From: Methanobrevibacter sp.
GTDB lineage: Archaea > Methanobacteriota > Methanobacteria > Methanobacteriales > Methanobacteriaceae
Length of the DNA: 64,000 nucleotides
Assembly: GCF_017431965.1 (NCBI RefSeq)
Contig: NZ_JAFRKB010000033.1
Location: 62,001-126,000, forward strand
Reading direction: 5' to 3'
The position numbers and the translations under genes are program-made. The notes under the pieces are model-generated. The model was not told the origin of the DNA, did not search any database, and saw only the letters and a list, made by a program, of their open reading frames with translations. Below are positions 3,826 to 36,587 of the stretch, in pieces (the first letter of the stretch is position 1; the number at the start of each line of letters is the position of its first letter).

Positions 3826-4995
<1,170 letters not shown>

Positions 4996-6033
4996 TTACA
5001 TTTTAATTTTGCCTTTGAATTTAGCATAAACAGCATAATCAACATAAGTCTTATCATCGATTATATCCTGTGTTTTTGGAGCTAATTCTCTTCTCTCAAC
5101 AATTTCATCTTTTACAGTGATTGTGAATCCATCACTTCCTGCGCCTGATCCATATGAAATAACAAATATATTATCTCCAGGTTCTGCAACATCTAAAATA
5201 TTAGATAATGCTAAAGGCACTGCTCCAGAATAGGTATTTCCAATATTTGGAGTTAAGAGACCTTGTTTTATTTGTTCTGAAGTGAAACCTAATTTTTTAC
5301 CTGCCCTTAAGTAAAATTTACCGTTAGGTTGATGGAAACAAGCATAATCATAATCTTCAGGTTTTGAGTCAGTTTCGTCAAATAACATTTTAGCTGCACT
5401 TAAAACATGCTTAAAGTAAGCTGGCTCTCCTGTAAACCTACCACCATGGGACGGATAGTTTTGACCTTCTCTTCTGTAGAAATCAGGAGTATCAGTTGTA
5501 AAACTGCAAGTATGATTAATATCAGCTATAGTATTTTCGCTACCTATAATATAAGCTGCTCCTCCAGCGGATGCAGTATATTCTAAAGCATCACCCGGCG
5601 CACCTTGAGAAGTGTCAGCACCAATAGCCAATGCATATTCTACCATTCCAGACTGTACAAGACCCATAGACATTTGAATGCCAGCAGTTCCTGCTTTACA
5701 AGCGAATTCCAAATCAGCAGCAGTTAATTTTGGAGTTGCACAAACAGCTTCAGCAACAATGGAAGCGGTTGGCTTTACTGCATAAGGATGTGATTCAGAA
5801 CCAACATAAACAGCACCAATCTTACTTGGATCAATCTGAGCTCTTGCTAGAGCATATCTAGCAGCGGTTACTGCAATAGTTGCAGTATCTTCATCAGCAG
5901 AAGGAACGGATTTTTCATTAACGACCAATCCATTTGACAAAGCTACAGGGTCATCACCCCATACTTTTGCAATTTCTTCTACCTTAATCCTATATGAGGG
6001 TACATGTGCCCCATATCCTACTATTCCTACCAT
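4996..6033 (-). CDS. Hydroxymethylglutaryl-CoA synthase
   Basis: A 345-residue archaeal HMG-CoA synthase that condenses acetyl-CoA and acetoacetyl-CoA in the mevalonate pathway. Visible catalytic residues are E80 ([14 protein letters not shown]) and C112 ([11 protein letters not shown]); FHQPNGKF carries the conserved His. The start ATG at 6031-6033 has an AGGTGATTTA ribosome site. It is the first gene of the pair with thiolase. Archaeal HMGS is shorter than the eukaryotic form, and this length is normal for the archaeal type. Confidence 0.95.
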
Positions 6034-20013: not shown

Positions 20014-20844
20014 CTAATATTGTCCAAAATCAATGAAATCAATATGATGATTATATCTTTCTTCTTCTGGAGGCAACTCCATATAATCTCCATATAATTC
20101 AGTCAATATCTTATCATAATTTTTTGGAACATTGACATAAATATCTTCAAATTTGACTTTTTCAATTTCTTTAAAATCATTTTTGTCATATATTAAAGGA
20201 TACTCATTAGCATTTGCCGAGAAATCAAACACACTTTCAGAATTAGCATCAGCATAACTATTTAAAAAATTTAAGCATTTCCTATTCAATTTTGAAGGAG
20301 TGATATTTAAAATATTTAATAGATGATACATTGAATGTGAAATAAACTTTGATATGAATGGCAAATCATCCAATCTTATTCTGGAAGTAACTAACAAACG
20401 GTTATATAAAAAAGCCTTTTTAATTTGAAAAAAACGTTTGAATTTGTTGTTAGATACATCATCAAGAACAAAGATATCAATATTGAATCCGATAGTGAAA
20501 TCAAGATTAGATGCCCATTTTTCTTCAAATCTCGTATTTTTCAGTGATAACTTTGCAAACAAGTAACAATAATCCTCTTCTGATTCAATGGTTAACAATT
20601 CATATTTTTCATTTGAAGAATAGAGTTTTTTGAATTTTTCAAAATCATCCCTCAACATCACGACATCCAAATCATCATCCCAAGGAATAAAGCCGCCATG
20701 CCTTATAGTTCCCAATAAAGAACCGGCATACATGAAATATGTAAGGTCATTATCTTCACAAAAACTGATCAAATCCTTTAAAATCATTAATTCAACATCA
20801 TGAATATGTTTTAAAGTCTCATCATCATATTTTTTAATTTTCAC
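20014..20844 (-). CDS. LicD family phosphotransferase
   Basis: A 276-residue LicD protein. The nucleotidyltransferase-fold signature GSLLGTIRHGGFIPWDDDLD is near residue 42. Bacterial LicD enzymes transfer phosphocholine from CDP-choline to surface glycans; eukaryotic fukutin relatives transfer ribitol phosphate. Last gene of a run of seven minus-strand genes led by PEP mutase, 12 bases after phosphonopyruvate decarboxylase. Inference: it transfers a CDP-activated phosphonate or polyol-phosphate to a glycan. A paralogue with the same ends (KKYDDETL, DFG(Q/E)Y) is at 27126-27959. Confidence 0.88.
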   Translation of the reverse strand: MKIKKYDDETLKHIHDVELMILKDLISFCEDNDLTYFMYAGSLLGTIRHGGFIPWDDDLDVVMLRDDFEKFKKLYSSNEKYELLTIESEEDYCYLFAKLSLKNTRFEEKWASNLDFTIGFNIDIFVLDDVSNNKFKRFFQIKKAFLYNRLLVTSRIRLDDLPFISKFISHSMYHLLNILNITPSKLNRKCLNFLNSYADANSESVFDFSANANEYPLIYDKNDFKEIEKVKFEDIYVNVPKNYDKILTELYGDYMELPPEEERYNHHIDFIDFGQY

Positions 20845-20855
20845 AATATCACAAT

Positions 20856-21977
20856 TTATTCCTTATTAATGAAATTCATGAAGTTCTCTTTGTTTTCAAG
20901 TGCAGTGGTTGTTGGCCTTCCCAAATCTTCACGAGCGCCGATAGAACACAATACCTCAATAAAACAAAGGTCATCTCTAGATTTTGCCAATTTTAATTCA
21001 TTATCCAAATCATCGAAATTATCAACTGATACGGCATATGAATAACCGCAGGATTCAGCTATGTTGACCAGATTCATTGTAGATGCAACGGTTGGCATTC
21101 CACCAACGGTTTCATGAGCACTATTGTTTATAACAATATGTACTAAATTAGAGGGATTTACATTACCCACAACAGCTAACGAACCCATATGCATTAATGC
21201 AGATCCATCACCGTCAATACACCAAACCTTCTCATCAGGTTTATTTATAGCGACACCTAATGCAATAGAAGAAGTATGTCCCATAGAACCTACAGTTAAG
21301 AAATCATATTTGTGTGCTTGATTATTAGATTCCCTTATCTCAAATAATTCCCTACTAGCTTTACCTGTAGTGGAAACAATAGGATCCTCGCCACTAACAT
21401 TAACAATGTGTTCAATGATTTCCTCACGAACCATAAGATTATCATTTTCATAAACAACTTTTTTATCATATGTCAAAGCATTTTTGCGGACAACAAAAGC
21501 AACGCATTTTCCAGAAGCAAGAAGATCATTATATTCCGCCATAACATCATTAAGTTCATTAACACTAGTGTCTTCACCAATGACAAAATTATCAATATCC
21601 ATTAAATCAAGCAATGTACAGGTTATTTCTCCTTGATAGATATGCTGCGGTTCATCGTGAACACCAGGTTCGCCTCGCCAACCAATAACAAAAATACAGG
21701 GAATAGCATAAACTTTGTCATTCAACAAAGATGCAACAGGATTAATAATATTACCTTCACCACTATTTTGCATATAAACAACAGGGACTTTACCAGTTGC
21801 TAAATGATAACCTGCAGCTAATGCAGTACAATTTCCCTCATTAGCAGCAATTATATGATGATTTTCATCAATACCATATTCATTCATTAAATAATTGCAT
21901 AATGCTTTTAGCTGTGAATCCGGAACGCCTGTGTAAAAATCACAACCCAGAACCCTTACAAAATCTTCAACATTCAT
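20856..21977 (-). CDS. aepY: Phosphonopyruvate decarboxylase
   Basis: A 373-residue thiamine-diphosphate enzyme that decarboxylates phosphonopyruvate to phosphonoacetaldehyde, making C-P bond formation irreversible. It begins NVEDFVRVLGCDFYTGVPDS, typical of Ppd, with the cofactor-activating Glu at E47 (ANEGNCTALAAGYHLATG) and the ThDP/Mg motif GDGSALMHMGSLAVVGN...NNSAHE. Length matches bacterial AepY/Ppd. Shared operon with PEP mutase makes the assignment over sulfopyruvate decarboxylase (ComDE, coenzyme M pathway) secure; methanogen ComDE is the main look-alike. Confidence 0.93.
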   Translation of the reverse strand: MNVEDFVRVLGCDFYTGVPDSQLKALCNYLMNEYGIDENHHIIAANEGNCTALAAGYHLATGKVPVVYMQNSGEGNIINPVASLLNDKVYAIPCIFVIGWRGEPGVHDEPQHIYQGEITCTLLDLMDIDNFVIGEDTSVNELNDVMAEYNDLLASGKCVAFVVRKNALTYDKKVVYENDNLMVREEIIEHIVNVSGEDPIVSTTGKASRELFEIRESNNQAHKYDFLTVGSMGHTSSIALGVAINKPDEKVWCIDGDGSALMHMGSLAVVGNVNPSNLVHIVINNSAHETVGGMPTVASTMNLVNIAESCGYSYAVSVDNFDDLDNELKLAKSRDDLCFIEVLCSIGAREDLGRPTTTALENKENFMNFINKE

Positions 21978-21992
21978 ATTTTAATACCTATA

Positions 21993-23168
21993 TTATAATT
22001 GTGGAGTAATAATCTTTTCAATCAAGAATTCAGCAGTTTTTTCAATATCGTCATATGCTACTTCTTTTGGTAAATCTTCACCAAAGGCATCTTTCACTTT
22101 ACGAATCAAATCATCAGTATAATAAAGTGTTGCATCTTTAATATCTTCCACACCATCTAAAGCCAATGATTCACGATTTGCCTTGTCCATTTCATCAAAA
22201 GTAAATACTGATTCATCAATCCATGCAGAAATCTTATCATCTTTATATCCAATAATTACAGGATATCCACCAATGTGTCCGAATACACCAGGAGCGAATA
22301 CCTTTTGACTTTCACCTGTGCGTATTGCATCAATAACTGCTGAGATAATGCGATAATTACTGGATGCATTCATCATGTTCCTTTTTTGGTCAACGGGCAT
22401 GCTAATTGAACATGCACTGTAAATATCTTCATGAGGAATGTCCTTTTCTTCACCGCGATAGTAAATCTTTAACGGTAAATCCACGCCTTCTGTTTGGCCT
22501 TCTTTGCTTATGCATACATCATGGAAATGTGCTGCTGCAAAATTGAAATCAACATTCCAGAAATCATCCACACCAAGAATATCTGCAACTGCAAATTTCA
22601 TTCTAGGAATTAAATGATTTAAGTTTCCACTGCCAAAGTCCGGATATGCCTTACCTGCACTTTTAAGCCAAGGAATAACCGCATCAGAATAGGAAGTATT
22701 AATTACAACTGCATCGGTATCGGCTTTGTCACATGCTTCCATAATGTTTTTAGTGAATCTGATTGATAATGGAGTCCAAATACCGTATGCCCTTACATTA
22801 TTCCATGAAATACTTCCATATTTAAGACCAGGATAAGCCCTACTGGAGTTGACAATAAAATCTGGACTATGTTTAGCTATTGCTTTTTCGATGGAATCAA
22901 TGTCATTTAAATCAACCCCTGCTTCGACAATAATCTCTGATTTATTTAATTCACGAATAAGGCTTGCAACACGAACAATATTAACATCAGATTGCATTTT
23001 TTCCTGATTTCTTCCAACAACAACTAATTTTATAGCAGGATCGTTTTTACTTACTAAAAAGTCTAATAAATAGGTTCCCACGCTTCCTAAACCTATAATC
23101 ATAATTGTAATTTCATCATCTTTTACATGTTTTTCAACAACTTGTAATCTTTCATCTAATGTTTTCAT
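21993..23168 (-). CDS. Rossmann-fold NAD(P)-dependent dehydrogenase, substrate unknown
   Basis: A 391-residue protein whose nucleotide-binding loop is MIIGLGSVGTYLLDFLVSKN near residue 23, in the style of saccharopine-dehydrogenase-like proteins. Other conserved-looking segments are NSSRAYPGLKYGS, NTSYSDAVIPWL and GHIGGYPVII. I do not recognise a characterised family. It sits between the nucleotidyltransferase (3-base gap) and phosphonopyruvate decarboxylase (15 bases), so it is probably part of the phosphonate pathway; reduction or oxidation of phosphonoacetaldehyde or a later intermediate is a guess from position only. Confidence 0.65.
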   Translation of the reverse strand: MKTLDERLQVVEKHVKDDEITIMIIGLGSVGTYLLDFLVSKNDPAIKLVVVGRNQEKMQSDVNIVRVASLIRELNKSEIIVEAGVDLNDIDSIEKAIAKHSPDFIVNSSRAYPGLKYGSISWNNVRAYGIWTPLSIRFTKNIMEACDKADTDAVVINTSYSDAVIPWLKSAGKAYPDFGSGNLNHLIPRMKFAVADILGVDDFWNVDFNFAAAHFHDVCISKEGQTEGVDLPLKIYYRGEEKDIPHEDIYSACSISMPVDQKRNMMNASSNYRIISAVIDAIRTGESQKVFAPGVFGHIGGYPVIIGYKDDKISAWIDESVFTFDEMDKANRESLALDGVEDIKDATLYYTDDLIRKVKDAFGEDLPKEVAYDDIEKTAEFLIEKIITPQL

Positions 23169-23171
23169 AAT

Positions 23172-23942
23172 TTATTTCTCCCAATAATTTTTAATTAATT
23201 TATAATCTTCACGAGTGTTACAGTTTACCCAATGTTTTAAACCAATTATTTCAATTTCAGAAGCATTTTCAACTAAATCGAAGTATTTTTGAATAATTCC
23301 CAAATTGGTATCCTCAATGATATTTTCATAGAAATTATCATTTGCAGCTTTAAGTAAATCCATATCCTTGAATTTCCAGGTTTGACCGGAATTAAAAATA
23401 GCCTTAAAAGGTTCATTTAACTCCAATAATCCATGGTCACTATTAAACAAATAGTGATATTCATCATTAGCACCAACATATAGGACAACCGCCTTATTTG
23501 AATAAATCGGATCATAATTGAATGTTAAAACATTCTTATCAGAGAAAACTACTTTATTAAATGATTCACTGTCAATGTCCAAATCTCCTTCTACAAATAA
23601 TATTTCATCAATATTATTAAAATTGTCTAAGGCTTCTTTTATTCCAAGATATAAACTATATCCTGAACTTAAATCACTGAAATGATCATTATAAACAGTT
23701 ACAATTTTATCCTGCAACTCTTTTGAAATGTTGTGGTTAATGTAGTCAACCAAATCATCATATTTGTATCCGCCGACAATGACAATCTTATCAGCATAAC
23801 TGACCTTTTCAAGCATATGATAAATTAAACTATCTTGAGGGTTTTCTTCATAATACAAACACTTTAATATCTTATCCTCTTCAGGAATGTCCTTGTTGAA
23901 TCTGCTTGAGACACCCGCCACTCCAATAATAACTATTTTCAA
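23172..23942 (-). CDS. Nucleotidyltransferase-like protein (candidate phosphonate cytidylyltransferase)
   Basis: A 256-residue member of the sugar-phosphate/choline-phosphate nucleotidyltransferase fold. It starts KIVIIGVAGVSSRFNKDIPE, a variant of the GxGxR loop followed by a KxL segment (DKILKCLYYEENPQDSLIYH), with acidic metal ligand candidates in FVEGDLDIDS near residue 119. Family members LicC and the phosphonate enzyme PntC activate phosphocholine or 2-aminoethylphosphonate with CTP. In this operon a CTP:phosphonate cytidylyltransferase role is the natural inference; the atypical glycine loop leaves activity uncertain. Confidence 0.7.
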   Translation of the reverse strand: MKIVIIGVAGVSSRFNKDIPEEDKILKCLYYEENPQDSLIYHMLEKVSYADKIVIVGGYKYDDLVDYINHNISKELQDKIVTVYNDHFSDLSSGYSLYLGIKEALDNFNNIDEILFVEGDLDIDSESFNKVVFSDKNVLTFNYDPIYSNKAVVLYVGANDEYHYLFNSDHGLLELNEPFKAIFNSGQTWKFKDMDLLKAANDNFYENIIEDTNLGIIQKYFDLVENASEIEIIGLKHWVNCNTREDYKLIKNYWEK

Positions 23943-23944
23943 AT

Positions 23945-24955
23945 TTATTCACCCGAATTAAGGTAATTTTCAACACATTCATCCAATCCTTTATCTAAAT
24001 CCATAATAGGTTCCCAATTGGTTCTTGTTCTGATTTTTTCAGTTGATAATAATCTTCTCTCAGGGTCGGATTCACGGTAACCTTCAAACTTGATAACAGG
24101 CTCATCAATACCCATTTTTTTAGCAATCAATTTTGTCAAATCAATGATTGATATTTCTTCATCTGTTGCCACATTATAGATTGTACCATCCAGTGCGGAG
24201 TCTGTTTTAGCCAATGCCAATACTGCACTGCAGCTATCATAATTGTTTAAAAATGTTCTGCAGTTCTTTTTGGAATTTTCCAATAGTGTTACTTCACCAT
24301 CATTTTTAAAGCTGTTTATGATGTGAGGTATAATATGTTTTGGTAATTTTTCATTTTTACTGTAAACATTAGCAAAACGAATGGAACAACCTTTAATTTT
24401 ACCGTTATCAACTGCATCCTTCATGAAAAACTCAGTCAATAGCTTTCCGGTTGCATAACTTGTCCTTTGACTGTGTTCCGCATTTGCCATAGTGATGAAA
24501 TCAGATTCCTTAACACCGCCATCTTCATTCCATGAATTCATTGAATAAATTTCAGAAGTGGAACAGTTGATGTATTTTTCAGCACCGACTTCAATAGCCT
24601 GAGTTAAAAAATCATTCATGCTAACCACATTGGTTTCGTAAGTTTCATAAACGTTGTAAAAATGTTCTGTGTGAACAACAGCTGCACAGTTAATATAACA
24701 AATTTCATCAAAATCATCTTTCAAATCTAAAACTAATGATTTGATTTCATCCATCTGCTCTTTGTTGTTTAAGTCATATTCATAAAAATCAAAGCGGTCA
24801 TCATCCAAACAGTCTTTTACTGTATCTATTGATGATGCATAGAAATTGTCGAAACCAATGATTTTTACTTCATCTTCATCTTGGTTTAAAAGTTGTCTTA
24901 CCAACTCGTTACCTGTCATTCCAGTAACACCACTAATAACATATAAAACTTTCAT
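23945..24955 (-). CDS. NAD-dependent epimerase/dehydratase (extended SDR)
   Basis: A 336-residue extended SDR. Motifs: GVTGMTGNELVRQLL for NAD binding near residue 9, NCAAVVHTEHF, a catalytic Ser in CSTSEIY, and SYATGK carrying the YxxxK pair. C-terminal substrate-domain pieces are FANVYSKNEKLPKHIIPH and TNWEPIMDLDKGLDE. It resembles nucleotide-sugar 4-epimerases or dehydratases. It is 2 bases upstream of the nucleotidyltransferase in the phosphonate operon, so its substrate may be a nucleotide-linked sugar of the same glycan. Exact reaction unknown. Confidence 0.82.
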   Translation of the reverse strand: MKVLYVISGVTGMTGNELVRQLLNQDEDEVKIIGFDNFYASSIDTVKDCLDDDRFDFYEYDLNNKEQMDEIKSLVLDLKDDFDEICYINCAAVVHTEHFYNVYETYETNVVSMNDFLTQAIEVGAEKYINCSTSEIYSMNSWNEDGGVKESDFITMANAEHSQRTSYATGKLLTEFFMKDAVDNGKIKGCSIRFANVYSKNEKLPKHIIPHIINSFKNDGEVTLLENSKKNCRTFLNNYDSCSAVLALAKTDSALDGTIYNVATDEEISIIDLTKLIAKKMGIDEPVIKFEGYRESDPERRLLSTEKIRTRTNWEPIMDLDKGLDECVENYLNSGE

Positions 24956-24967
24956 AAATAAACCTTC

Positions 24968-25699
24968 TTAAATTCCATTTTCTAACCTTAAACGATAAAA
25001 ATCATCAATACTTCCATCATACAAAGCCATAGCTTTATCTTTTGGATATTTAACATACCTGAGCTCAACGCTCATTGAATCTGTGTCAAGAATTGCATAT
25101 TGTGCATTTGGATTATGGTTTCTAGGCTGGCCCACAGATCCGGGATTAATAAATAAAACAGACTTTTTATTTCTCATATCAGGATTGTCAACATCGTAAA
25201 AATACTGAAAAACGTGAGGATAATGAGAATGACCTGACAAGACAATGTCAAAATCAGAATAATCTCCATTTAAGTTATCTGGAAAAATTGCTTTCCAATA
25301 ATAATCAATTAAGGAACCATGAATCGCCAAAACTTTTTTATCATCAATTTCAAATTCATATCTTCCTTCATGAATCAAATCCTTATTTAAATAATCTTTA
25401 GATTCCTCAGTGAGTTGGGATTCTGTGAATTTTGCTGAATCAACACCTCGTTGGTTTGAAAAATGGTCAAAATCTTTAGTCAAAATAGCTCTTTCATGAT
25501 TTCCCCAAATATTGCATATTATTTTTTCTGACAAATTATCCTTAACGCATTCTATTACCTCATTTGATTGCATTCCATAATCAATCAAATCACCTAAAAG
25601 AATAATTGATTCAATATTTTGATTATTCAAATCTTCAATAACCTCTGTTAATGCAAACAGGTTTCCATGAATATCTGATAAAATTGCATATTTAGACAT
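24968..25699 (-). CDS. Metallophosphoesterase, YfcE/MJ0936-like
   Basis: A calcineurin-like phosphoesterase of 243 residues from the ATG at 25697-25699. Motifs in order: ILSDIHGNLFAL, LLGDLIDYG, IWGNHERAI, LAIHGSL, LSGHSHYPHVF and NPGSVGQPRN, which together bind two metals. An in-frame TTG/ATG pair at 25718-25723 overlaps the PEP mutase stop and would add eight residues; the shorter start fits the family better. Its place inside the phosphonate operon suggests hydrolysis of a phosphate ester or CDP-linked intermediate, but this type is promiscuous. Confidence 0.82.
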   Translation of the reverse strand: MSKYAILSDIHGNLFALTEVIEDLNNQNIESIILLGDLIDYGMQSNEVIECVKDNLSEKIICNIWGNHERAILTKDFDHFSNQRGVDSAKFTESQLTEESKDYLNKDLIHEGRYEFEIDDKKVLAIHGSLIDYYWKAIFPDNLNGDYSDFDIVLSGHSHYPHVFQYFYDVDNPDMRNKKSVLFINPGSVGQPRNHNPNAQYAILDTDSMSVELRYVKYPKDKAMALYDGSIDDFYRLRLENGI

Positions 25700-25709
25700 G
25701 TTAATCGTT

Positions 25710-27017
25710 TTATAATTCATCAATTAATGTGATAATATCCTTGATAGATAGTAATTCTTCATCGATTTCGTGGGCTCTGTGATATTTTAAAATGGATTTT
25801 GCTGCATTTTGCATAGCCGGGAAAGCTGCTCTTAACAATTGATTTGCATAAATTACAATATTGACGCCGTGCTCGATGAGTTCTTCTTCAGTTACTGTGT
25901 TATAGGAAGACGGAACTACTACAATTGGAGTTTCACTGTCTTTTTCTCTAAATTTATCACAGAATTCAAGTATCTCATCCGGTTCCTTTTTCCTACTGTG
26001 TATCATTATACCATCTGCACCGGCATCCCTAAATGCAAATGCCCTTTCTAGTGCATCTTCCATTCCTTGCTCAAGAATTAAACTTTCAATTCTTGCAATA
26101 ATCATGAAATCATCTGATAGTTGTGCGTTTTTACCAGCTGCTATTTTTTCACAGAAATGTTCAATGTCATCTTGAGTCTGCTCCACTTCAGTTCCAAATA
26201 GTGAATTTTTCTTTAATCCTACCTTATCTTCAATGATTACTGCTGAAACACCCATTCTCTCAAGAGATCTTACCGTATAGACAAAATGCTCTGTAATTCC
26301 ACCAGTATCTCCATCAAAAATAATCGGTTTGGTTGTAACTTCCATTATGTCATTGATTGTTCTGAATCTGGAAGTCATGTCCACCAATTCAATGTCCGGT
26401 TTTCCCTTTTCGGTACTGTCACATAAACTGGATATCCACATTGCTTCAAACTGATCAACATGTTCATCATCGGCAATGACAGTTTTTTCAGCAATCAAAC
26501 CAGTCAACCCGCTGTGAACTTCAATTGTTTTTACAACAGGAACAATATCCAATAATTGTCTTAATCTTTTTCTTCTAAGCTCAGGCATTGCCAATTTTTC
26601 CCTCATTTGCCTGTCCATCTTTTGAATTTTGGGATTGAATGTATATGGAATTTCTATCAATTCCCCACCATATTTATCCAGAACATTGATGATATTTTTC
26701 CGGATAACTTTCATGGAGTCCTCAGCCCAGTTATCTCCATGGATAACATAATCCGGACGCAATTCCTTTACAATATCATCATACATGACTTGATGCTGTA
26801 TGACAACATCTTTAATGTCTGGAATTGATTTGACCAATTCGACACGTTCTTCTGTTGATTTTAAAGGAAATCTATTATACTTAACCATTTCAGAATCACA
26901 AAGGACACCAACAACAACATCACCATACTTTTTTGCTTCATTAATCAGGTTCAAGTGTCCATCATGGATAACATCGGTACAAAAACAAGTATAAACAATT
27001 GGTTTATCAGAGCTCAT
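25710..27017 (-). CDS. aepX: Phosphoenolpyruvate mutase fused to an N-terminal cytidylyltransferase-like domain
   Basis: A two-domain protein of about 435 residues. Residues 1 to about 140 are a cytidylyltransferase-like domain with the HxGH box (DVIHDGHLNLINEAKKYGD). From about 150 is PEP mutase: metal-binding FDGDTGG and the diagnostic active-site loop EDKVGLKKNS, which separates true PEP mutases from isocitrate-lyase-like relatives. It forms phosphonopyruvate from PEP, the entry to nearly all natural phosphonates. First gene of the seven-gene minus-strand run. An AAAGGT ribosome site fits the ATG at 27015-27017 (spacing 7) better than the ATG at 27021-27023. Confidence 0.93.
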   Translation of the reverse strand: MSSDKPIVYTCFCTDVIHDGHLNLINEAKKYGDVVVGVLCDSEMVKYNRFPLKSTEERVELVKSIPDIKDVVIQHQVMYDDIVKELRPDYVIHGDNWAEDSMKVIRKNIINVLDKYGGELIEIPYTFNPKIQKMDRQMREKLAMPELRRKRLRQLLDIVPVVKTIEVHSGLTGLIAEKTVIADDEHVDQFEAMWISSLCDSTEKGKPDIELVDMTSRFRTINDIMEVTTKPIIFDGDTGGITEHFVYTVRSLERMGVSAVIIEDKVGLKKNSLFGTEVEQTQDDIEHFCEKIAAGKNAQLSDDFMIIARIESLILEQGMEDALERAFAFRDAGADGIMIHSRKKEPDEILEFCDKFREKDSETPIVVVPSSYNTVTEEELIEHGVNIVIYANQLLRAAFPAMQNAAKSILKYHRAHEIDEELLSIKDIITLIDEL

Positions 27018-27125
27018 AGTCATTACCTTTACTATTATAATATATTATTTATAAAAAAAGAAATATTTAAAAATTTCCAAGACATATATAATTATTAGAT
27101 TCATAAAAAAATTTATGGGAAAAAT
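27018..27125. promoter_or_regulatory. Divergent promoter region, PEP mutase operon and second LicD gene
   Basis: About 100 very AT-rich bases between two outward-facing operons. For the plus-strand LicD gene, ATATATAATT at 27084-27093 is a TATA box about 40 bases before the ATG. For the minus strand, TTTATAAATAATATATTATA at about 27034-27053 is a candidate. Shared control of the two halves of the locus is plausible. Confidence 0.5.
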
Positions 27126-27959
27126 ATGTTCAAATCAAAAAGATATGATGACAAAACATTAAGACATCTTCAAAAAGTTCAACTGATGATGTTGAAGGAT
27201 TTCATTAAAATTTGTGAAAACAATGATATACTTTATTTCATTAATGGAGGCAGTTTGCTTGGAACTATCCGTCATGAAGGATTCATTCCATGGGATGATG
27301 ACATTGACTTGATGATGTTTAGAAAAGACTTTGAAAAACTGGATTCCATCTTTGACAATGAAAACAATGAAAAATATAGGCTCATTAATGTATTGAATGA
27401 AGAAACCTATCATTATACTTTTGCTAGGATAATGTTGAAAAATACCATTTTCGAAGAATGGTGGGCCGATCAAGTAGATTACACCCAAAATATTTTCATT
27501 GACATTTTTATTCTTGATAATATTCCCGACAAAGGATTTAAAAGGTCTATTCATAAATGGAAATGTTTTGCACTTAATCAGATGATATATTATTCACTTA
27601 TAAAATTCACGGATGATTCTAAATTCAAAAGCTTTTTAAAACAATTATTGTATTATATTCTAAAAATAATTCCCGTTTCAACAAACACACTGAAAAGGAA
27701 ATGCATAAATTCCTATAAGAAATACGAAGATTACGAATCCGAGGAGGTCTGTGATTTTCCCGCTCCATGCAACTTGCCCATCTATAAAAGAAATGATTGG
27801 TTACCTCCAAAAAAAGCCAAATTCGAGGATATTGAAGTGAACATACCTAATAATCCAGATAGCATATTGACAAGAATATATGGCGATTACATGAAATTAC
27901 CACCAGAGGATAAGAGATTTAGGCCCGCACCGGAAAAAATTGACTTTGGAGAATATTAA
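27126..27959 (+). CDS. LicD family phosphotransferase (second copy)
   Basis: A 277-residue LicD protein with GSLLGTIRHEGFIPWDDDID near residue 42, clearly paralogous to the gene at 20014-20844 over its whole length (matching starts YDD(E/K)TL and ends YGDYM(E/K)LPPE...DFG(Q/E)Y). LicD proteins transfer phosphocholine-like groups from CDP carriers to glycans. It heads a plus-strand pair with the epimerase gene 12 bases downstream. Two copies suggest two acceptor sites or two donor headgroups in the glycan; which is not visible. Confidence 0.88.
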   Translation: MFKSKRYDDKTLRHLQKVQLMMLKDFIKICENNDILYFINGGSLLGTIRHEGFIPWDDDIDLMMFRKDFEKLDSIFDNENNEKYRLINVLNEETYHYTFARIMLKNTIFEEWWADQVDYTQNIFIDIFILDNIPDKGFKRSIHKWKCFALNQMIYYSLIKFTDDSKFKSFLKQLLYYILKIIPVSTNTLKRKCINSYKKYEDYESEEVCDFPAPCNLPIYKRNDWLPPKKAKFEDIEVNIPNNPDSILTRIYGDYMKLPPEDKRFRPAPEKIDFGEY

Positions 27960-27971
27960 AAAGGTGATGAT

Positions 27972-29024
27972 TTGATAATAAATAAAATAATAGACGAAGA
28001 TGCACAACAGATTATTGATGAAAATGATGGATTGAACGAATTATATAACTCTTCAGTAATGATTACAGGTGCAACAGGCATGATTGGAAGTTATTTTGTC
28101 TATACTTTAATGAAATTAAATGAAAATTACGATGCCAATATTGAAATAATCCCGTTGGTTAGAAATTTAAATAAATTAAATAAGCAGATTCTCTCTAAAG
28201 ATTATGTTCATCCAGTTATCCAAGATGTTACTGAAAAAATTGAATACGAAAATGATGTTGATTATATAATTCACGCAGCCAGTCCGGCCAGCCCCAAAAT
28301 AATGAAAGAAAAACCAGTTGAAACAAATTTCGCCAATACATTAGGCGCTGCCAATACACTAATGTTTGCAAAAGACCATAATACAAAAAAATACTTGTTT
28401 ATATCCTCAAGAGAAATTTATGGTGCTCCACTTGAAAATCAGGAATACTTTTCGGAAGACAGTTTTGGAATTATTGACCAATTGATACCTAGAAATGCAT
28501 ATGCTGAAGGAAAAAAAGCTGCAGAAAACATGTGCGTAGGGTTTAAAAAAGAATATGGGTTAGATACTAAAATCGTTAGACTTGCCCATACATATGGACC
28601 TGGCATGAGTGTTGATGATGGAAGAGTTCAAGCAGATTTCCTAAAAAACTTGTTAAATGAAGAGGATATTGTTTTAAATAGTGATGGATCTTCAATAAGA
28701 ACTTACACATATATCAGTGATGCAGTCAGTGCAATGTTTAAAATTATCTTAAAAAGCAAAGATATGGTATACAATGTATCAGATGAAAGAAACGAAGTTT
28801 CAATAAGAGAATTGGCTGAAACAATGGTTAAGATTTTACCTGAAAAACAATTGAAATTAGTGTTCAATATCAAAGATGAAGAGAATGACACAGGATATGC
28901 TCCTTTCAAGTTTGGTCTTTTATCATCTGAAAAAATTAGAAATGAATTGAATTGGAATGCTAAATATTCCGTTTTTGAAGGATTTAAAAGAACATTGGAA
29001 TATTTAAAAATTGTATCTAACTAG
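27972..29024 (+). CDS. NAD-dependent epimerase/dehydratase (UDP-glucuronate decarboxylase-like SDR)
   Basis: A 350-residue extended SDR starting at a TTG after an AAGGTGATGA ribosome site. Motifs: MITGATGMIGSYFVYTL, HAASPASPKIM, the Ser site FISSREIYGAP and NAYAEGKKAAENM with YxxxK, then RLAHTYGPGM and SIRTYTYISDAVSA. The HAASPASP and YGPGM blocks are like UDP-xylose synthases and related decarboxylases. It is cotranscribed with LicD and converges on the GatZ-like gene, overlapping its 3' end by 8 bases. Sugar product unknown. Confidence 0.83.
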   Translation: MIINKIIDEDAQQIIDENDGLNELYNSSVMITGATGMIGSYFVYTLMKLNENYDANIEIIPLVRNLNKLNKQILSKDYVHPVIQDVTEKIEYENDVDYIIHAASPASPKIMKEKPVETNFANTLGAANTLMFAKDHNTKKYLFISSREIYGAPLENQEYFSEDSFGIIDQLIPRNAYAEGKKAAENMCVGFKKEYGLDTKIVRLAHTYGPGMSVDDGRVQADFLKNLLNEEDIVLNSDGSSIRTYTYISDAVSAMFKIILKSKDMVYNVSDERNEVSIRELAETMVKILPEKQLKLVFNIKDEENDTGYAPFKFGLLSSEKIRNELNWNAKYSVFEGFKRTLEYLKIVSN

Positions 29025-30321
29025 CTTTTGTCGCATGAAAATAATCTTCAACTACATCAATAACATTGGACTTTACAAGACTTTTAGAATCTAACGGATA
29101 ATCTTCTTCCAATATCTTCATGAAAGCATTTGGGAAAAATTGTTTAATCAAACCCAAAGGCAAATCACAAGAATCGATATTATTAAATAGATTGTCAATA
29201 CTTGATTCAATATCCCCTCTGGACATATAATAACGAGACCTGTCGGAAAAGCTATATTTCCTTGAAAGTTCCTTTTCAAGCTCACTACCGATATAATAAT
29301 TTTGCCAATCCTTTGGATTTTCGATCATTACCTCTTCAAGACATTCAATGAAATTAGCATGCTTGGCTTTATCTTTAATTAATTCCTTTTCCATCATGCT
29401 GAGTGCAAACAATCCTTCTCTAAATGCAAAAGTACATGCCGGGCCCACCTTCAGAATAGCTACACCATCACCCACCATTTCCTTTAGTTTAGCTGGAGGT
29501 TGATAATCAGTAGAATGTCCTTCAAATACCAAATTAGGATAATCTTTAAGGACTTTAGAAAGACCATTCATTTCTTCTCTTTCATAAAGATGTACATTAA
29601 CATTACTAAATTCAACACCTGGTTGCACCACTACAGCAATAATATTATCCCATGCATTCTTAATTCCTGCTTCTTTGAATTTTTTATCATAAGCATTTAT
29701 TGTATTTTTGAAATCATTAGGAGATGTCACTTGTAATGTATCAACTTCTTCAAACTCCCCACCAGGAATAGGCACCTCACTACCAATTACATAAACTGGA
29801 TGGATTGAATTAGGGAATTTTTCAACTCGTTGTTTAAATGCCTCTTCGCAAACTTCATATAATTCCACACCTCTTTTAGCAATGACCTCATCAGACAGCT
29901 TAACATTAACATCATCGCTTCCCAGTCTCATACTGGTATCCAAGTGTATTTTAGTATATCCTGCCAATACTGCTTGTTCAACAAGCTCTTTAGCATTTTC
30001 CATAGCTTCTGTTTCTGATTTATCAGCCCATGCAAGTGGCCCAAAATGATCAGCACCCAATAAAAGTTTTTCTTTGGGAAAATCTACTTTATCCGCAATA
30101 TCATAAATATAATCAACAAAATCATAAGGAGTCATATTCATATATCCTCCAAATTGATTTACCTGATTGGCAGTGGCTTCTATTAATACATAATCATTGA
30201 ATTTTTTACTATATTCTAAGATAGCCTCAATTACAATGCCGTTCGCAGTACAAAATGAAGGAATACCAACATGGATCCCTAATTTTCTTTTAGAAAGGAT
30301 TTCCTTAATAGGATGATTCAT
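29017..30321 (-). CDS. GatZ/KbaZ-like class II tagatose-bisphosphate aldolase non-catalytic subunit homologue
   Basis: About 434 residues from the ATG at 30319-30321, which has an AGGTG ribosome site; an upstream frame to 30402 lies inside the IspD-like gene and is unlikely. Family segments: GIHVGIPSFCTANGIVIEA, VLIEATANQVNQFGGYMNM, LLLGADHFGPLAW, IHLDTSMRLG and FEGHSTDYQ. GatZ and KbaZ stabilise the GatY/KbaY aldolases in galactitol and N-acetylgalactosamine breakdown. No catalytic partner or PTS gene is present; it follows a cytidylyltransferase in a glycan locus, so it probably has another task, perhaps making a sugar-phosphate precursor. Confidence 0.82.
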   Translation of the reverse strand: MNHPIKEILSKRKLGIHVGIPSFCTANGIVIEAILEYSKKFNDYVLIEATANQVNQFGGYMNMTPYDFVDYIYDIADKVDFPKEKLLLGADHFGPLAWADKSETEAMENAKELVEQAVLAGYTKIHLDTSMRLGSDDVNVKLSDEVIAKRGVELYEVCEEAFKQRVEKFPNSIHPVYVIGSEVPIPGGEFEEVDTLQVTSPNDFKNTINAYDKKFKEAGIKNAWDNIIAVVVQPGVEFSNVNVHLYEREEMNGLSKVLKDYPNLVFEGHSTDYQPPAKLKEMVGDGVAILKVGPACTFAFREGLFALSMMEKELIKDKAKHANFIECLEEVMIENPKDWQNYYIGSELEKELSRKYSFSDRSRYYMSRGDIESSIDNLFNNIDSCDLPLGLIKQFFPNAFMKILEEDYPLDSKSLVKSNVIDVVEDYFHATKAS

Positions 30322-30343
30322 ACATACACCTGTAAGTGTTAAA

Positions 30344-31054
30344 TTATTTTTTTGATTCGAAGAAATAGCTATGAATAGTTTTTTTAAATATTTCAAGGTC
30401 ATGAGGATAAGTGATCTTTAGATTAATAACATTTGCTTCAATTGTTTTCATCTTAATTCCATGTTCTAAAGCTAAAGCTCCTCCAGAAGTCATGCTTTCA
30501 AGTTCCTCATCAGTTGATTGGTCATAAATCGGGAATATTTCACCAAATTTAAAACCTTCAGGGGAAGCTCCAGCAACTAATTCCTGTCGAGGAATTACAT
30601 CAGTTATAAAACCATCTTCACTCATTTTATAAACTGTGTCATATTGGAATGCTCCCAATGTTGCACCACCATATTCGTTAATAGCATCAATGACTTCTAT
30701 TGTACCCGGTTCATCCACATAGGGGTGTGTTGCATCATGGAAAAGTACTATGTCTTCATCCTGAGCACAATGGGAAATGGATTTTAATCCATAATAAACA
30801 GAATGTGAACGAGTTTCGCCACCGGCAACAATTGATATCGGATGTTTAAGTTCCAAACTGTCAACCCATTTTTGTACATAATCAATCCACATTTCATTTG
30901 ATACAATTACTATTTCATCAATACAATCCAATTTATTATAAGAACGCAATATATAAAAGAAAATTGGAATACCATCAATTTCAATGTACTGTTTAGGCCT
31001 ATCGGCACCCAATCTTGTGCCGCTTCCACCCATCATCAATAATAAATAATTCAT
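30344..31054 (-). CDS. IspD/TarI-like cytidylyltransferase
   Basis: A 236-residue IspD-superfamily protein. The CTP-binding loop is MMGGSGTRLGADRPKQYIEI at the N-terminus; IVAGGETRSHSVYYGL and LFHDATHPYVDEP follow, the last with the metal-binding acid. IspD proper serves the MEP isoprenoid pathway, but this organism has mevalonate enzymes (3826-6033). The TarI relatives make CDP-ribitol for teichoic acids, so a CDP-polyol role in this surface locus is more likely. The GatZ-like gene starts 22 bases downstream and may make its substrate. Confidence 0.82.
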   Translation of the reverse strand: MNYLLLMMGGSGTRLGADRPKQYIEIDGIPIFFYILRSYNKLDCIDEIVIVSNEMWIDYVQKWVDSLELKHPISIVAGGETRSHSVYYGLKSISHCAQDEDIVLFHDATHPYVDEPGTIEVIDAINEYGGATLGAFQYDTVYKMSEDGFITDVIPRQELVAGASPEGFKFGEIFPIYDQSTDEELESMTSGGALALEHGIKMKTIEANVINLKITYPHDLEIFKKTIHSYFFESKK

Positions 31055-35069: not shown

Positions 35070-36587
35070 ATGAACAGAAAATGCATAATTGCCATCATTG
35101 CAATACTTTTAATAATTTGTGCCTGTGCTTTTGCACTTACACATTTCTCAAATACTGGTTCTACATCCACAAGTATTGATGCAAACGCACTGGAAGACAG
35201 AGGAAACCTAGTTGTCGACGGGAAAACTTTAGACGAAAGCAAAGGATTATATCACACAGACAGTGCGGAAACCAATGCTATTTTAGTTAAAAACGGAGGA
35301 GTCCTGAAATTAGTCGACTCCCTTTTAAATAAAACAGGAGATACACAGACTTCAGGAGATGATGCTGACTTTTATGGTGTCAACTCAGCTATTTTAGTAA
35401 ATACCAACGGTACTCTGGATATTTCAAATGTTGAGATTATCACAAATTCCAAAGGCTCAAACGGAATTTTCGTAACCAATGCGGAAGCTTCAAGCAGTGG
35501 CTCTTCACAAGGCTCAGGAGACGGAGGCCAATCACCAGAAGCAACCGGAAATGGCGGAGCCGGACAAGGTTCAGGAGACGGAGGCCAACCACCTGAAATG
35601 CCTGAAGGTTCAGGTGAAGGAGGACAACCTTCTGGCGGCAGCGACGGAGGACCTGGCGAAACAACAGTCGAAGGCACAACCCAAGCAAACATCAACAACG
35701 TGAAAATCACCACCCACTCAGACAAGTCAAGAGGGCTTGATGCAACATACAACGGTATAATCAATGCAGTTAATGTAATCATCAATACTGACGGTCAAAG
35801 CTGTGCGGCTCTTGCAACAGATCGTGGAGAAGGTCAGGTGCATGTCAAAAACTCAGAAATCAACACTGGAGTAAGTAAAGATTCAGGAAGAGGCTCACCT
35901 TTAATCTATTCAACAGGAAACATCACCTGTGAAAATACTAAAGGAACTTCATATGTATCCCAAATAGCATGTATTGAAGGTAAAAACTCAATTGAATTAA
36001 AAGATTGTGACCTGACAGGTTATGCGGAAGGTAACAGAAAAGATGGGGATGCTTACGTTGATTTGGGCGGAATATTCATCTACCAAAGCATGAGCGGTGA
36101 TGCAGACGTTGGAACATCCCATTTCACAGCGGAAAATACCAAATTAGCAATAGCTGAAGACTCTTCAGTTTACAAAGAGGCTCCAATGTTTCATGTAACA
36201 AACACTGCTTGTGTAATTGACCTGGAAAATACCGAGTTAAGCTTCGGCAGCGGATTATTTTTAGAAATTGCCGGTCAAAACCAATGGGGAACTCAGGGTT
36301 CCAATGGAGGAACAGCTGAAGTAAACACAAATAATGAAAAAATAGAAGGAAACGTAATTGTTGATTCAATAAGTTCTTTAACTTGGATTATGAAAAATAC
36401 TGAGTTTAAAGGAGCAATCAACTCCACAGGAAACACAACCGTTAATGTGGCTGAAGGATCAACCTGGACCCTAACTGGTGACAGTTCCGTTTCTGCTTTG
36501 GAAGTTTCCGGAAATATTGACTACGGTTCATACACCTTAACCGTAAACGGTCAAAAATATACAAGTTCAAATCCTTTTAAAGGGTAA
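35070..36587 (+). CDS. Secreted beta-helix-like protein with a Gly/Pro/Ser-rich insert
   Basis: A 505-residue protein. The signal or anchor is KCIIAIIAILLIICACAFAL. The rest has stacked short strands typical of parallel beta-helices (NAILVKNGGVLKLVDSLLNK, SAILVNTNGTLDISNVEI, GIINAVNVIINTDGQS), resembling bacterial surface proteins with repeated ILVxNGG turns. Residues 140-200 form a low-complexity insert with repeats of GSGDGGQ(P/S)PE. The C-terminal part ends TVNVAEGSTWTLTGDSSVSA and NGQKYTSSNPF without a membrane anchor. GC content is visibly higher than in its neighbours. Likely an extracellular surface protein; specific role unknown. Confidence 0.75.
   Translation: MNRKCIIAIIAILLIICACAFALTHFSNTGSTSTSIDANALEDRGNLVVDGKTLDESKGLYHTDSAETNAILVKNGGVLKLVDSLLNKTGDTQTSGDDADFYGVNSAILVNTNGTLDISNVEIITNSKGSNGIFVTNAEASSSGSSQGSGDGGQSPEATGNGGAGQGSGDGGQPPEMPEGSGEGGQPSGGSDGGPGETTVEGTTQANINNVKITTHSDKSRGLDATYNGIINAVNVIINTDGQSCAALATDRGEGQVHVKNSEINTGVSKDSGRGSPLIYSTGNITCENTKGTSYVSQIACIEGKNSIELKDCDLTGYAEGNRKDGDAYVDLGGIFIYQSMSGDADVGTSHFTAENTKLAIAEDSSVYKEAPMFHVTNTACVIDLENTELSFGSGLFLEIAGQNQWGTQGSNGGTAEVNTNNEKIEGNVIVDSISSLTWIMKNTEFKGAINSTGNTTVNVAEGSTWTLTGDSSVSALEVSGNIDYGSYTLTVNGQKYTSSNPFKG

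Follow-up and report, generated by a model that had tools for sequence, protein, structure and literature searches.

A cytidylyltransferase, GatZ/KbaZ and reductase gene triad of Methanobrevibacter that probably supplies a nucleotide-activated hexitol

Introduction

In Campylobacter jejuni HS:5, the IspD-family cytidylyltransferase HS5.18 makes cytidine diphosphate (CDP)-6-fructose, which is reduced to CDP-6-D-glucitol by HS5.17, a short-chain dehydrogenase/reductase (SDR), and in Streptococcus pneumoniae 35A the Mnp1/Mnp2 pair leads to CDP-mannitol (excerpts of PMC10918830). GatZ and KbaZ of Escherichia coli are reported as C4-epimerases of fructose-6-phosphate (F6P) and tagatose-6-phosphate; tagatose formation is lost upon gatZ deletion, and GatZ has been modelled as a Zn-dependent epimerase acting by a retro-aldol/aldol mechanism (excerpts of PMC11907403). 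Here we analyse a stretch of 64,000 nucleotides from a Methanobrevibacter sp. genome (contig NZ_JAFRKB010000033.1 of assembly GCF_017431965.1, positions 62,001 to 126,000; "the window"), in which genes for an IspD/TarI-family cytidylyltransferase, a GatZ/KbaZ homologue (hereafter KbaZ) and an SDR are adjacent. Our results make it probable that a surface glycan receives from these three proteins a nucleotide-activated hexitol, most likely CDP-galactitol, which a LicD-family protein would transfer.

Results

The KbaZ protein of the window is a full-length match to PF08013 (531 bits for a cut-off of 26.7, profile positions 2-419 of 420) and aligns to the structure 2fiq across residues 6-428. As it stays below the cut-off of the NCBIfam model for the non-catalytic aldolase subunit (TIGR02810; 475.8 vs 568.8), we do not file it as an aldolase subunit. 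The seven epimerase active-site residues of GatZ, Zn ligands and catalytic Asp among them (Cys20, Glu44, Asp87, His88, Glu171, His257 and Lys279, as given in the excerpts of PMC11907403), correspond to C24, E48, D91, H92, E182, H269 and K291, and all seven are present in each of the ten GatZ/KbaZ copies examined. From this conservation, the protein is proposed to be a D-fructose-6-phosphate/D-tagatose-6-phosphate 4-epimerase.

The search for PF01116 proteins (the GatY/KbaY/Fba family) was negative for all six Methanobrevibacter genomes with PF08013, the methanogen's own among them, and IspF (PF02542) is equally missing from these six, control genomes behaving as expected in both searches. An earlier note on the window, made from the sequence alone, had described an IspD-like gene 22 bases upstream of a GatZ/KbaZ gene lacking its GatY/KbaY partner, in an organism with mevalonate genes, and had concluded that the IspD-like protein should make a CDP compound other than that of isoprenoid synthesis. 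Both reading frames are where it placed them, and the absence of PF01116 and IspF, with controls as expected, upholds the "GatZ without GatY" and the "IspD without methylerythritol phosphate (MEP) pathway" of that note; its last conclusion is borne out by this lack of IspF, by the HMG-CoA synthase and thiolase genes of the window and by the sub-cut-off IspD score given below. The 22-base gap results from the use of the ATG at 30321 as the start of the KbaZ gene, which is favoured by alignment with five homologues over the start at 30402 in the list of open reading frames (ORFs).

The cytidylyltransferase is below the NCBIfam cut-offs for both IspD (TIGR00453; 138.4 bits, cut-off 181.3) and ribitol-5-phosphate cytidylyltransferase (NF001183; 136.1 bits, cut-off 166). 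Its predicted fold is that of IspD/TarI (Z 25.4 to 23; structure model with a predicted local distance difference test score, pLDDT, of 77.5) and its best PDB sequence match is TarI (4jis, E 4e-30). The structure models of the cytidylyltransferase and of the SDR were built from 9 and 8 aligned sequences, respectively, and parts of both have a pLDDT <50. A tree was built from 67 proteins of the IspD family, after five duplicate rows and three sequences with long branches in an earlier tree (L031, L059 and L075_2910m) had been left out; in it, the protein belongs to a ten-member clade with 100/100 support. His110 is found in all ten members and in none of the 57 others, which have Arg or Ser; Arg is usual at this position of the HDxxRP motif, and we take it to lie in the substrate site of IspD. 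Another well-supported Methanobacteriaceae group of the family (L046, L047, L050, L054-L056, L064, L079-L081 and L083) mostly has HYGASP for HDxxRP, and LicD lies beside some of its members.

A KbaZ gene lies beside all ten clade cytidylyltransferase genes, be they from Archaea, from Clostridia or from an E. coli plasmid; the neighbour scan made for the tree, which reached 3.5 kb, found it for eight of nine clade rows after the dropping of five duplicate rows, and the ninth, L074, was read from its own locus. On these sequence grounds, the window protein is proposed to be a tagatose-6-phosphate or galactitol-phosphate cytidylyltransferase. Searches with the window protein gave no relative among viral contigs, 19 matches among phage records (25-28% identity for those listed) and 66 among plasmid records, the best two of which were taken further.

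Among 138 Methanobacteriaceae genomes, PF08013 and the clade cytidylyltransferase (479-489 bits, the next best match in any genome scoring 131) are found in exactly the same six, and in all six the cytidylyltransferase, KbaZ and SDR genes are adjacent, so that the pair described in the earlier note is conserved in these genomes as well as in the bacterial loci of the clade. The five genomes other than that of the window are from uncultured Methanobrevibacter or M. millerae, and their possession of the same triad counterbalances the limits of the source assembly, which has 95% completeness and 8.3% contamination. The triad is convergent in the window, where the KbaZ and SDR genes share 8 bases tail to tail, and in L017, divergent in L013, L015 and L016, and on the same strand in L014. 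These three arrangements show that the linkage has survived rearrangement.

The bacterial members of the clade come from two Firmicutes bins that are related to each other (L025 and L026, 62-63% identical to the window protein), from L074 (52%, the only match besides G138 among 391 genomes of the class of the latter) and from a plasmid of E. coli (L128/L130, 39%), with KbaZ, or GatZ on the plasmid, beside each. None of the four bacterial loci has an SDR of the window type, and a zinc dehydrogenase gene takes its place, so that a reductase gene accompanies the cytidylyltransferase in all ten clade loci. The best NCBIfam model for this dehydrogenase is the galactitol-1-phosphate 5-dehydrogenase GatD (L025, 298.6 bits; L026, 299.5; L074, 284.4), all three being below its cut-off of 550 and the next best model scoring 164-184 bits; the plasmid enzyme and its L025 counterpart share 41% identity. 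GatD interconverts tagatose-6-phosphate and galactitol-1-phosphate, and the presence of its homologue in place of the SDR points to galactitol. These loci also hold a polyol-phosphate transferase gene, LicD in L074 and a TarL/CDP-glycerol-type phosphotransferase in L025, L026 and L128. The adjacency of a putative epimerase, a tagatose-6-phosphate reductase, a CTP-dependent transferase and a polyol-phosphate transferase thus suggests CDP-galactitol.

A class II aldolase is encoded in three of the bacterial genomes with a clade cytidylyltransferase; the G139 copy, the one that was profile-scanned, scores 377.1 bits with the class II fructose-1,6-bisphosphate aldolase model TIGR01859 (cut-off 343.05) and passes no GatY/KbaY cut-off. 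The plasmid cluster (L128:4838-11528 and L130; LR890578.1 and NZ_JBTZOT010000002.1) contains an IspD-like gene, gatZ, a class II aldolase gene, gatD and CDP-glycerol phosphotransferase genes, and is broken by IS1. In L128, gatZ and gatD share about 80% DNA identity with gat genes from other E. coli, and the full cluster occurs in one of 5,426 complete E. coli genomes.

The best PDB structural matches of the SDR are 8v4h and 8v4g, the CDP-glucitol reductase of C. jejuni (Z 36.9 and 36.5, root-mean-square deviation 2.4 and 2.5, 316 residues, span 2-349), the next row being at Z 32.9 (model pLDDT 84.0). A helix is predicted at residues 3-17, ahead of the Rossmann fold, a feature called unusual for HS5.17 in the excerpts of PMC10918830. 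The YxxxK motif is formed by Y177 and K181, and the CDP-contacting residues Glu140, Arg164, Arg208 and Asp212 of HS5.17 are kept as E148, R174, R218 and D222. On the substrate side, Gln196, which contacts the C3' and C4' hydroxyls in HS5.17 (same excerpts), and Met139 are not kept, His206 and Arg147 being found instead. As both positions vary among homologues encoded beside IspD-family genes, a CDP-hexulose reductase function is still compatible with these changes, and sequence and model together lead us to propose a CDP-6-tagatose reductase.

Loci with other cytidylyltransferases help to see which genes travel together. L082 and L084 keep the SDR (63-67% identical) and LicD (65%), but their cytidylyltransferase is only 30% identical and KbaZ is missing; the cytidylyltransferase thus changes together with the epimerase gene while the reductase stays. 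L051 and L053, whose cytidylyltransferases are close to that of L082/L084, have a GatD-like dehydrogenase where the SDR would be. Both comparisons indicate that the reductase has been replaced without separating the cytidylyltransferase type from the epimerase. In L027:10001-13241 (Murimonas) and L129:6001-10952 (a Parabacteroides plasmid), two related cytidylyltransferases (99/91), both flagged as being on long branches, are clustered with a ribulose/allulose-phosphate 3-epimerase homologue, a reductase (GatD-like or SDR) and LicD or CDP-glycerol phosphotransferase genes. From their gene content, these loci, only two in number, may follow the same scheme with a C3 epimer.

The genome of the window also holds, in L018 (G000:C34, 8713-10429), a TarI/TarJ-like pair near tandem LicD-like genes, whose TarI reaches 344.7 bits and passes the ribitol-5-phosphate cytidylyltransferase cut-off. 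Judged by these matches, the methanogen probably makes CDP-ribitol too, and ribitol is already accounted for by this separate pair. A broken TarI-like gene, with an internal stop and split matches, was also seen at G000:C67:2189-2681.

The genes of the locus are given in Table 1. A phosphonate cassette adjoins the LicD, SDR, KbaZ and cytidylyltransferase genes; parts of it are again found beside the triad in L013, L015, L016 and L017, and none in the examined part of L014. At 35070-36587 (+), the window encodes a secreted-looking protein with a Gly/Pro-rich repeat stretch, and a similar ORF is present near the triad in L013.

Table 1. Genes of the triad, its surroundings and the mevalonate route (window coordinates)
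Feature	Position	Strand	Details
IspD/TarI-family cytidylyltransferase	30344..31054	-	236 aa; Pfam PF01128, E 1.8e-34
GatZ/KbaZ homologue	29017..30321	-	434 aa; Pfam PF08013 (GatZ_KbaZ-like), E 2.3e-159
SDR reductase, Mnp2/HS5.17 type	27972..29024	+	350 aa; convergent with KbaZ gene
LicD-family protein	27126..27959	+	277 aa; PF04991, E 1.4e-40
Phosphonate cassette	20014-27023	-	LicD; phosphonopyruvate decarboxylase (462 bits); NADP-binding oxidoreductase; DUF6564; SDR; metallophosphoesterase-like ORF; phosphoenolpyruvate mutase fused to cytidylyltransferase-like domain
HMG-CoA synthase, mevalonate route	4999-6033		615 bits
Acetyl-CoA thiolase, mevalonate route	3829-4983

Discussion

The data establish the gene content of the triad, its conservation and its recurring linkage, as well as the families, catalytic residues and clade structure of its proteins, and they suggest a route of four steps. 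KbaZ alone, as a C4-epimerase, would convert D-fructose-6-phosphate into D-tagatose-6-phosphate, the cytidylyltransferase would join CTP to the C6 phosphate to give CDP-6-D-tagatose, and the SDR, with NADPH, would reduce C2 to give a CDP-hexitol, most likely CDP-galactitol, CDP-talitol being the stereochemical alternative. LicD would finally put the hexitol phosphate on the surface glycan, a role suggested by its family, since LicD-domain proteins move polyol phosphate from CDP donors (excerpts of PMC4873967). By analogy, the first step is that of E. coli GatZ/KbaZ, and the second and third are those of HS5.18 and HS5.17, known with fructose and not with tagatose; the action of the enzymes in series, the tagatose specificity of the second and third steps, their order and the stereochemistry at C2 are what we infer. 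In the archaeal loci, SDR reduction would follow cytidylylation, as HS5.17 acts on CDP-6-fructose. In the bacterial loci, the GatD-like dehydrogenase may reduce tagatose-6-phosphate to galactitol-1-phosphate ahead of cytidylylation or could alternatively reduce the CDP compound.

Each enzyme step has a published homologue, and the combination is a variant of the Mnp1/Mnp2 (HS5.18/HS5.17) logic. Neither CDP-galactitol nor CDP-tagatose was found mentioned in the open-access full texts searched, related phrases leading only to the CDP-6-fructose paper. The earlier note had proposed a short route from a ketose or triose phosphate to a CDP-activated polyol or sugar for the glycan: a CDP-activated polyol for a glycan is indeed likely, and nothing points to a triose phosphate. 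It had overlooked the adjoining SDR, a homologue of the CDP-6-glucitol reductase which, together with the epimerase, leads to the more specific prediction that the polyol is a hexitol with the configuration of tagatose and not ribitol. The catalytic function that it had suspected for the GatZ/KbaZ protein fits the seven kept residues, and is no longer new since the report of the E. coli epimerases (excerpts of PMC11907403): given that activity and those residues, no partner has to be assumed, and the "non-catalytic" label is already outdated.

Other explanations have to be weighed against a route to CDP-galactitol. The cytidylyltransferase and the SDR could be an ordinary Mnp1/Mnp2 pair, turning F6P into CDP-mannitol or CDP-glucitol, with KbaZ as an unrelated neighbour. 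The published pairs do use F6P (excerpts of PMC10918830), and SDRs of this family usually lie beside an IspD-family gene, in 19 of 29 Clostridia loci (L098-L126) drawn from the best 30 of the matches. We nevertheless find this unlikely, as KbaZ is beside all ten clade cytidylyltransferases from Archaea to the E. coli plasmid, PF08013 occurs in only one of the 30 Clostridia genomes with such SDRs (G443, whose SDR, in L108, has Gln at the position of HS5.17 Gln196), and the clade is separate from the cytidylyltransferases of KbaZ-less SDR pairs. Quite unlikely, too, is that CDP-6-D-tagatose itself is the donor, tagatose phosphate entering the glycan and the SDR serving another sugar: the SDR gene is on the opposite strand in five of the six Methanobrevibacter loci and related SDRs pair with other cytidylyltransferases, but a reductase gene, SDR or GatD-like, is present in all ten clade loci, and the modelled SDR resembles most closely a CDP-hexulose reductase.

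Both functions suggested by the family names of the cytidylyltransferase were rejected, on account of the sub-cut-off scores, the lack of IspF in the six genomes and the separate TarI-like gene. That the protein is a TarI, with KbaZ as an accessory aldolase subunit, would agree with its fold and with 4jis as its best match; it is very improbable in view of its score (136 bits vs 166, the other TarI-like protein of the genome reaching 344.7), the His in place of the Arg of HDxxRP and the absence of PF01116 aldolases from the six genomes. As for a partial isoprenoid pathway with the protein as its MEP cytidylyltransferase, only the family name (PF01128) speaks for it, and the missing IspF, the mevalonate genes and 138 bits vs 181 leave it next to no chance.

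Several points weigh against the CDP-galactitol route itself. The substrate choice of all three proteins is a prediction from sequence. The clade cytidylyltransferases adjoin reductases of two unrelated kinds, which would come in at different stages of the route, and a single type of cytidylyltransferase may be unable to accept a ketose phosphate as well as a hexitol phosphate; with glucitol-6-phosphate, HS5.18 yielded <1% product (excerpts of PMC10918830). KbaZ is beside none of 39 other tree members, for flanks that partly reach only 1.5 kb, and the tree was built without Mnp1 and HS5.18. The six archaeal genomes are from one genus and are not independent, and the gene order of the E. coli plasmid may be accidental, because IS1 breaks the cluster and a GatY-type aldolase gene is also there. 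The role of LicD is uncertain because the CMP-phosphonate of the adjoining cassette would also need a transferase; the LicD copies of L082 and L084 adjoin a cytidylyltransferase and SDR pair without phosphonate genes. Finally, His206 of the SDR was considered as a marker of tagatose specificity, being present in all six KbaZ-linked SDRs, and is not used as evidence because it is also found in KbaZ-less ones (His in 14 of 33, Gln in 14 and other residues in 5, after the dropping of three duplicate loci and one weak second match).

If the route to CDP-galactitol is true, it adds a nucleotide-activated hexitol, assigns a role in biosynthesis to a family that annotations describe as a non-catalytic aldolase subunit, and means that the surface of rumen methanogens bears teichoic-acid-like hexitol phosphates that they share with gut Clostridia. 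Further, the clade and its His110 marker can serve as a rule by which to re-annotate genes at present named IspD. More tentatively, and with somewhat more doubt than confidence, one may think of a modular code in which every clade of cytidylyltransferases would be passed on along with a dedicated ketose-phosphate epimerase (in the present case GatZ/KbaZ, at C4; in the L027/L129 clade, the ribulose-phosphate/allulose-6-phosphate 3-epimerase homologue), while reductases (SDR or GatD-like) and transferases (LicD or TarL-like) would be freely interchangeable. The epimerase would then set the stereochemistry of the polyol, with CDP-galactitol and probably further CDP-polyols in gut bacteria and archaea.

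Comparison with known systems

Like HS5.18/HS5.17 and Mnp1/Mnp2, the locus combines a PF01128 cytidylyltransferase with a PF01370 SDR having an N-terminal helix, in a glycan locus, and HS5.17 is the closest solved structure to the window SDR. Unlike these pairs, which start from F6P and have no epimerase, the window-type cytidylyltransferase always has a putative C4-epimerase gene beside it; within the tree of 67 proteins, it forms a separate clade with His for the usual Arg. The KbaZ protein shares PF08013 and all seven named active-site residues with E. coli GatZ/KbaZ, but the latter belong to catabolic gat/aga operons with GatY/KbaY, whereas the context here is biosynthetic and the archaeal genomes have no class II aldolase.

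The IspD fold, the adjoining reductase and the nearby CDP-polyol phosphotransferase gene are reminiscent of the TarI/TarJ pathway to CDP-ribitol, from which the locus differs by a cytidylyltransferase below the ribitol-5-phosphate cut-off, in a genome that has its own TarI/TarJ-like pair. Galactitol-1-phosphate 5-dehydrogenase, finally, is the best model for the dehydrogenases of the bacterial clade loci, even though these are under its equivalog cut-off; the archaeal loci have the SDR in its place, and no such dehydrogenase was seen there.

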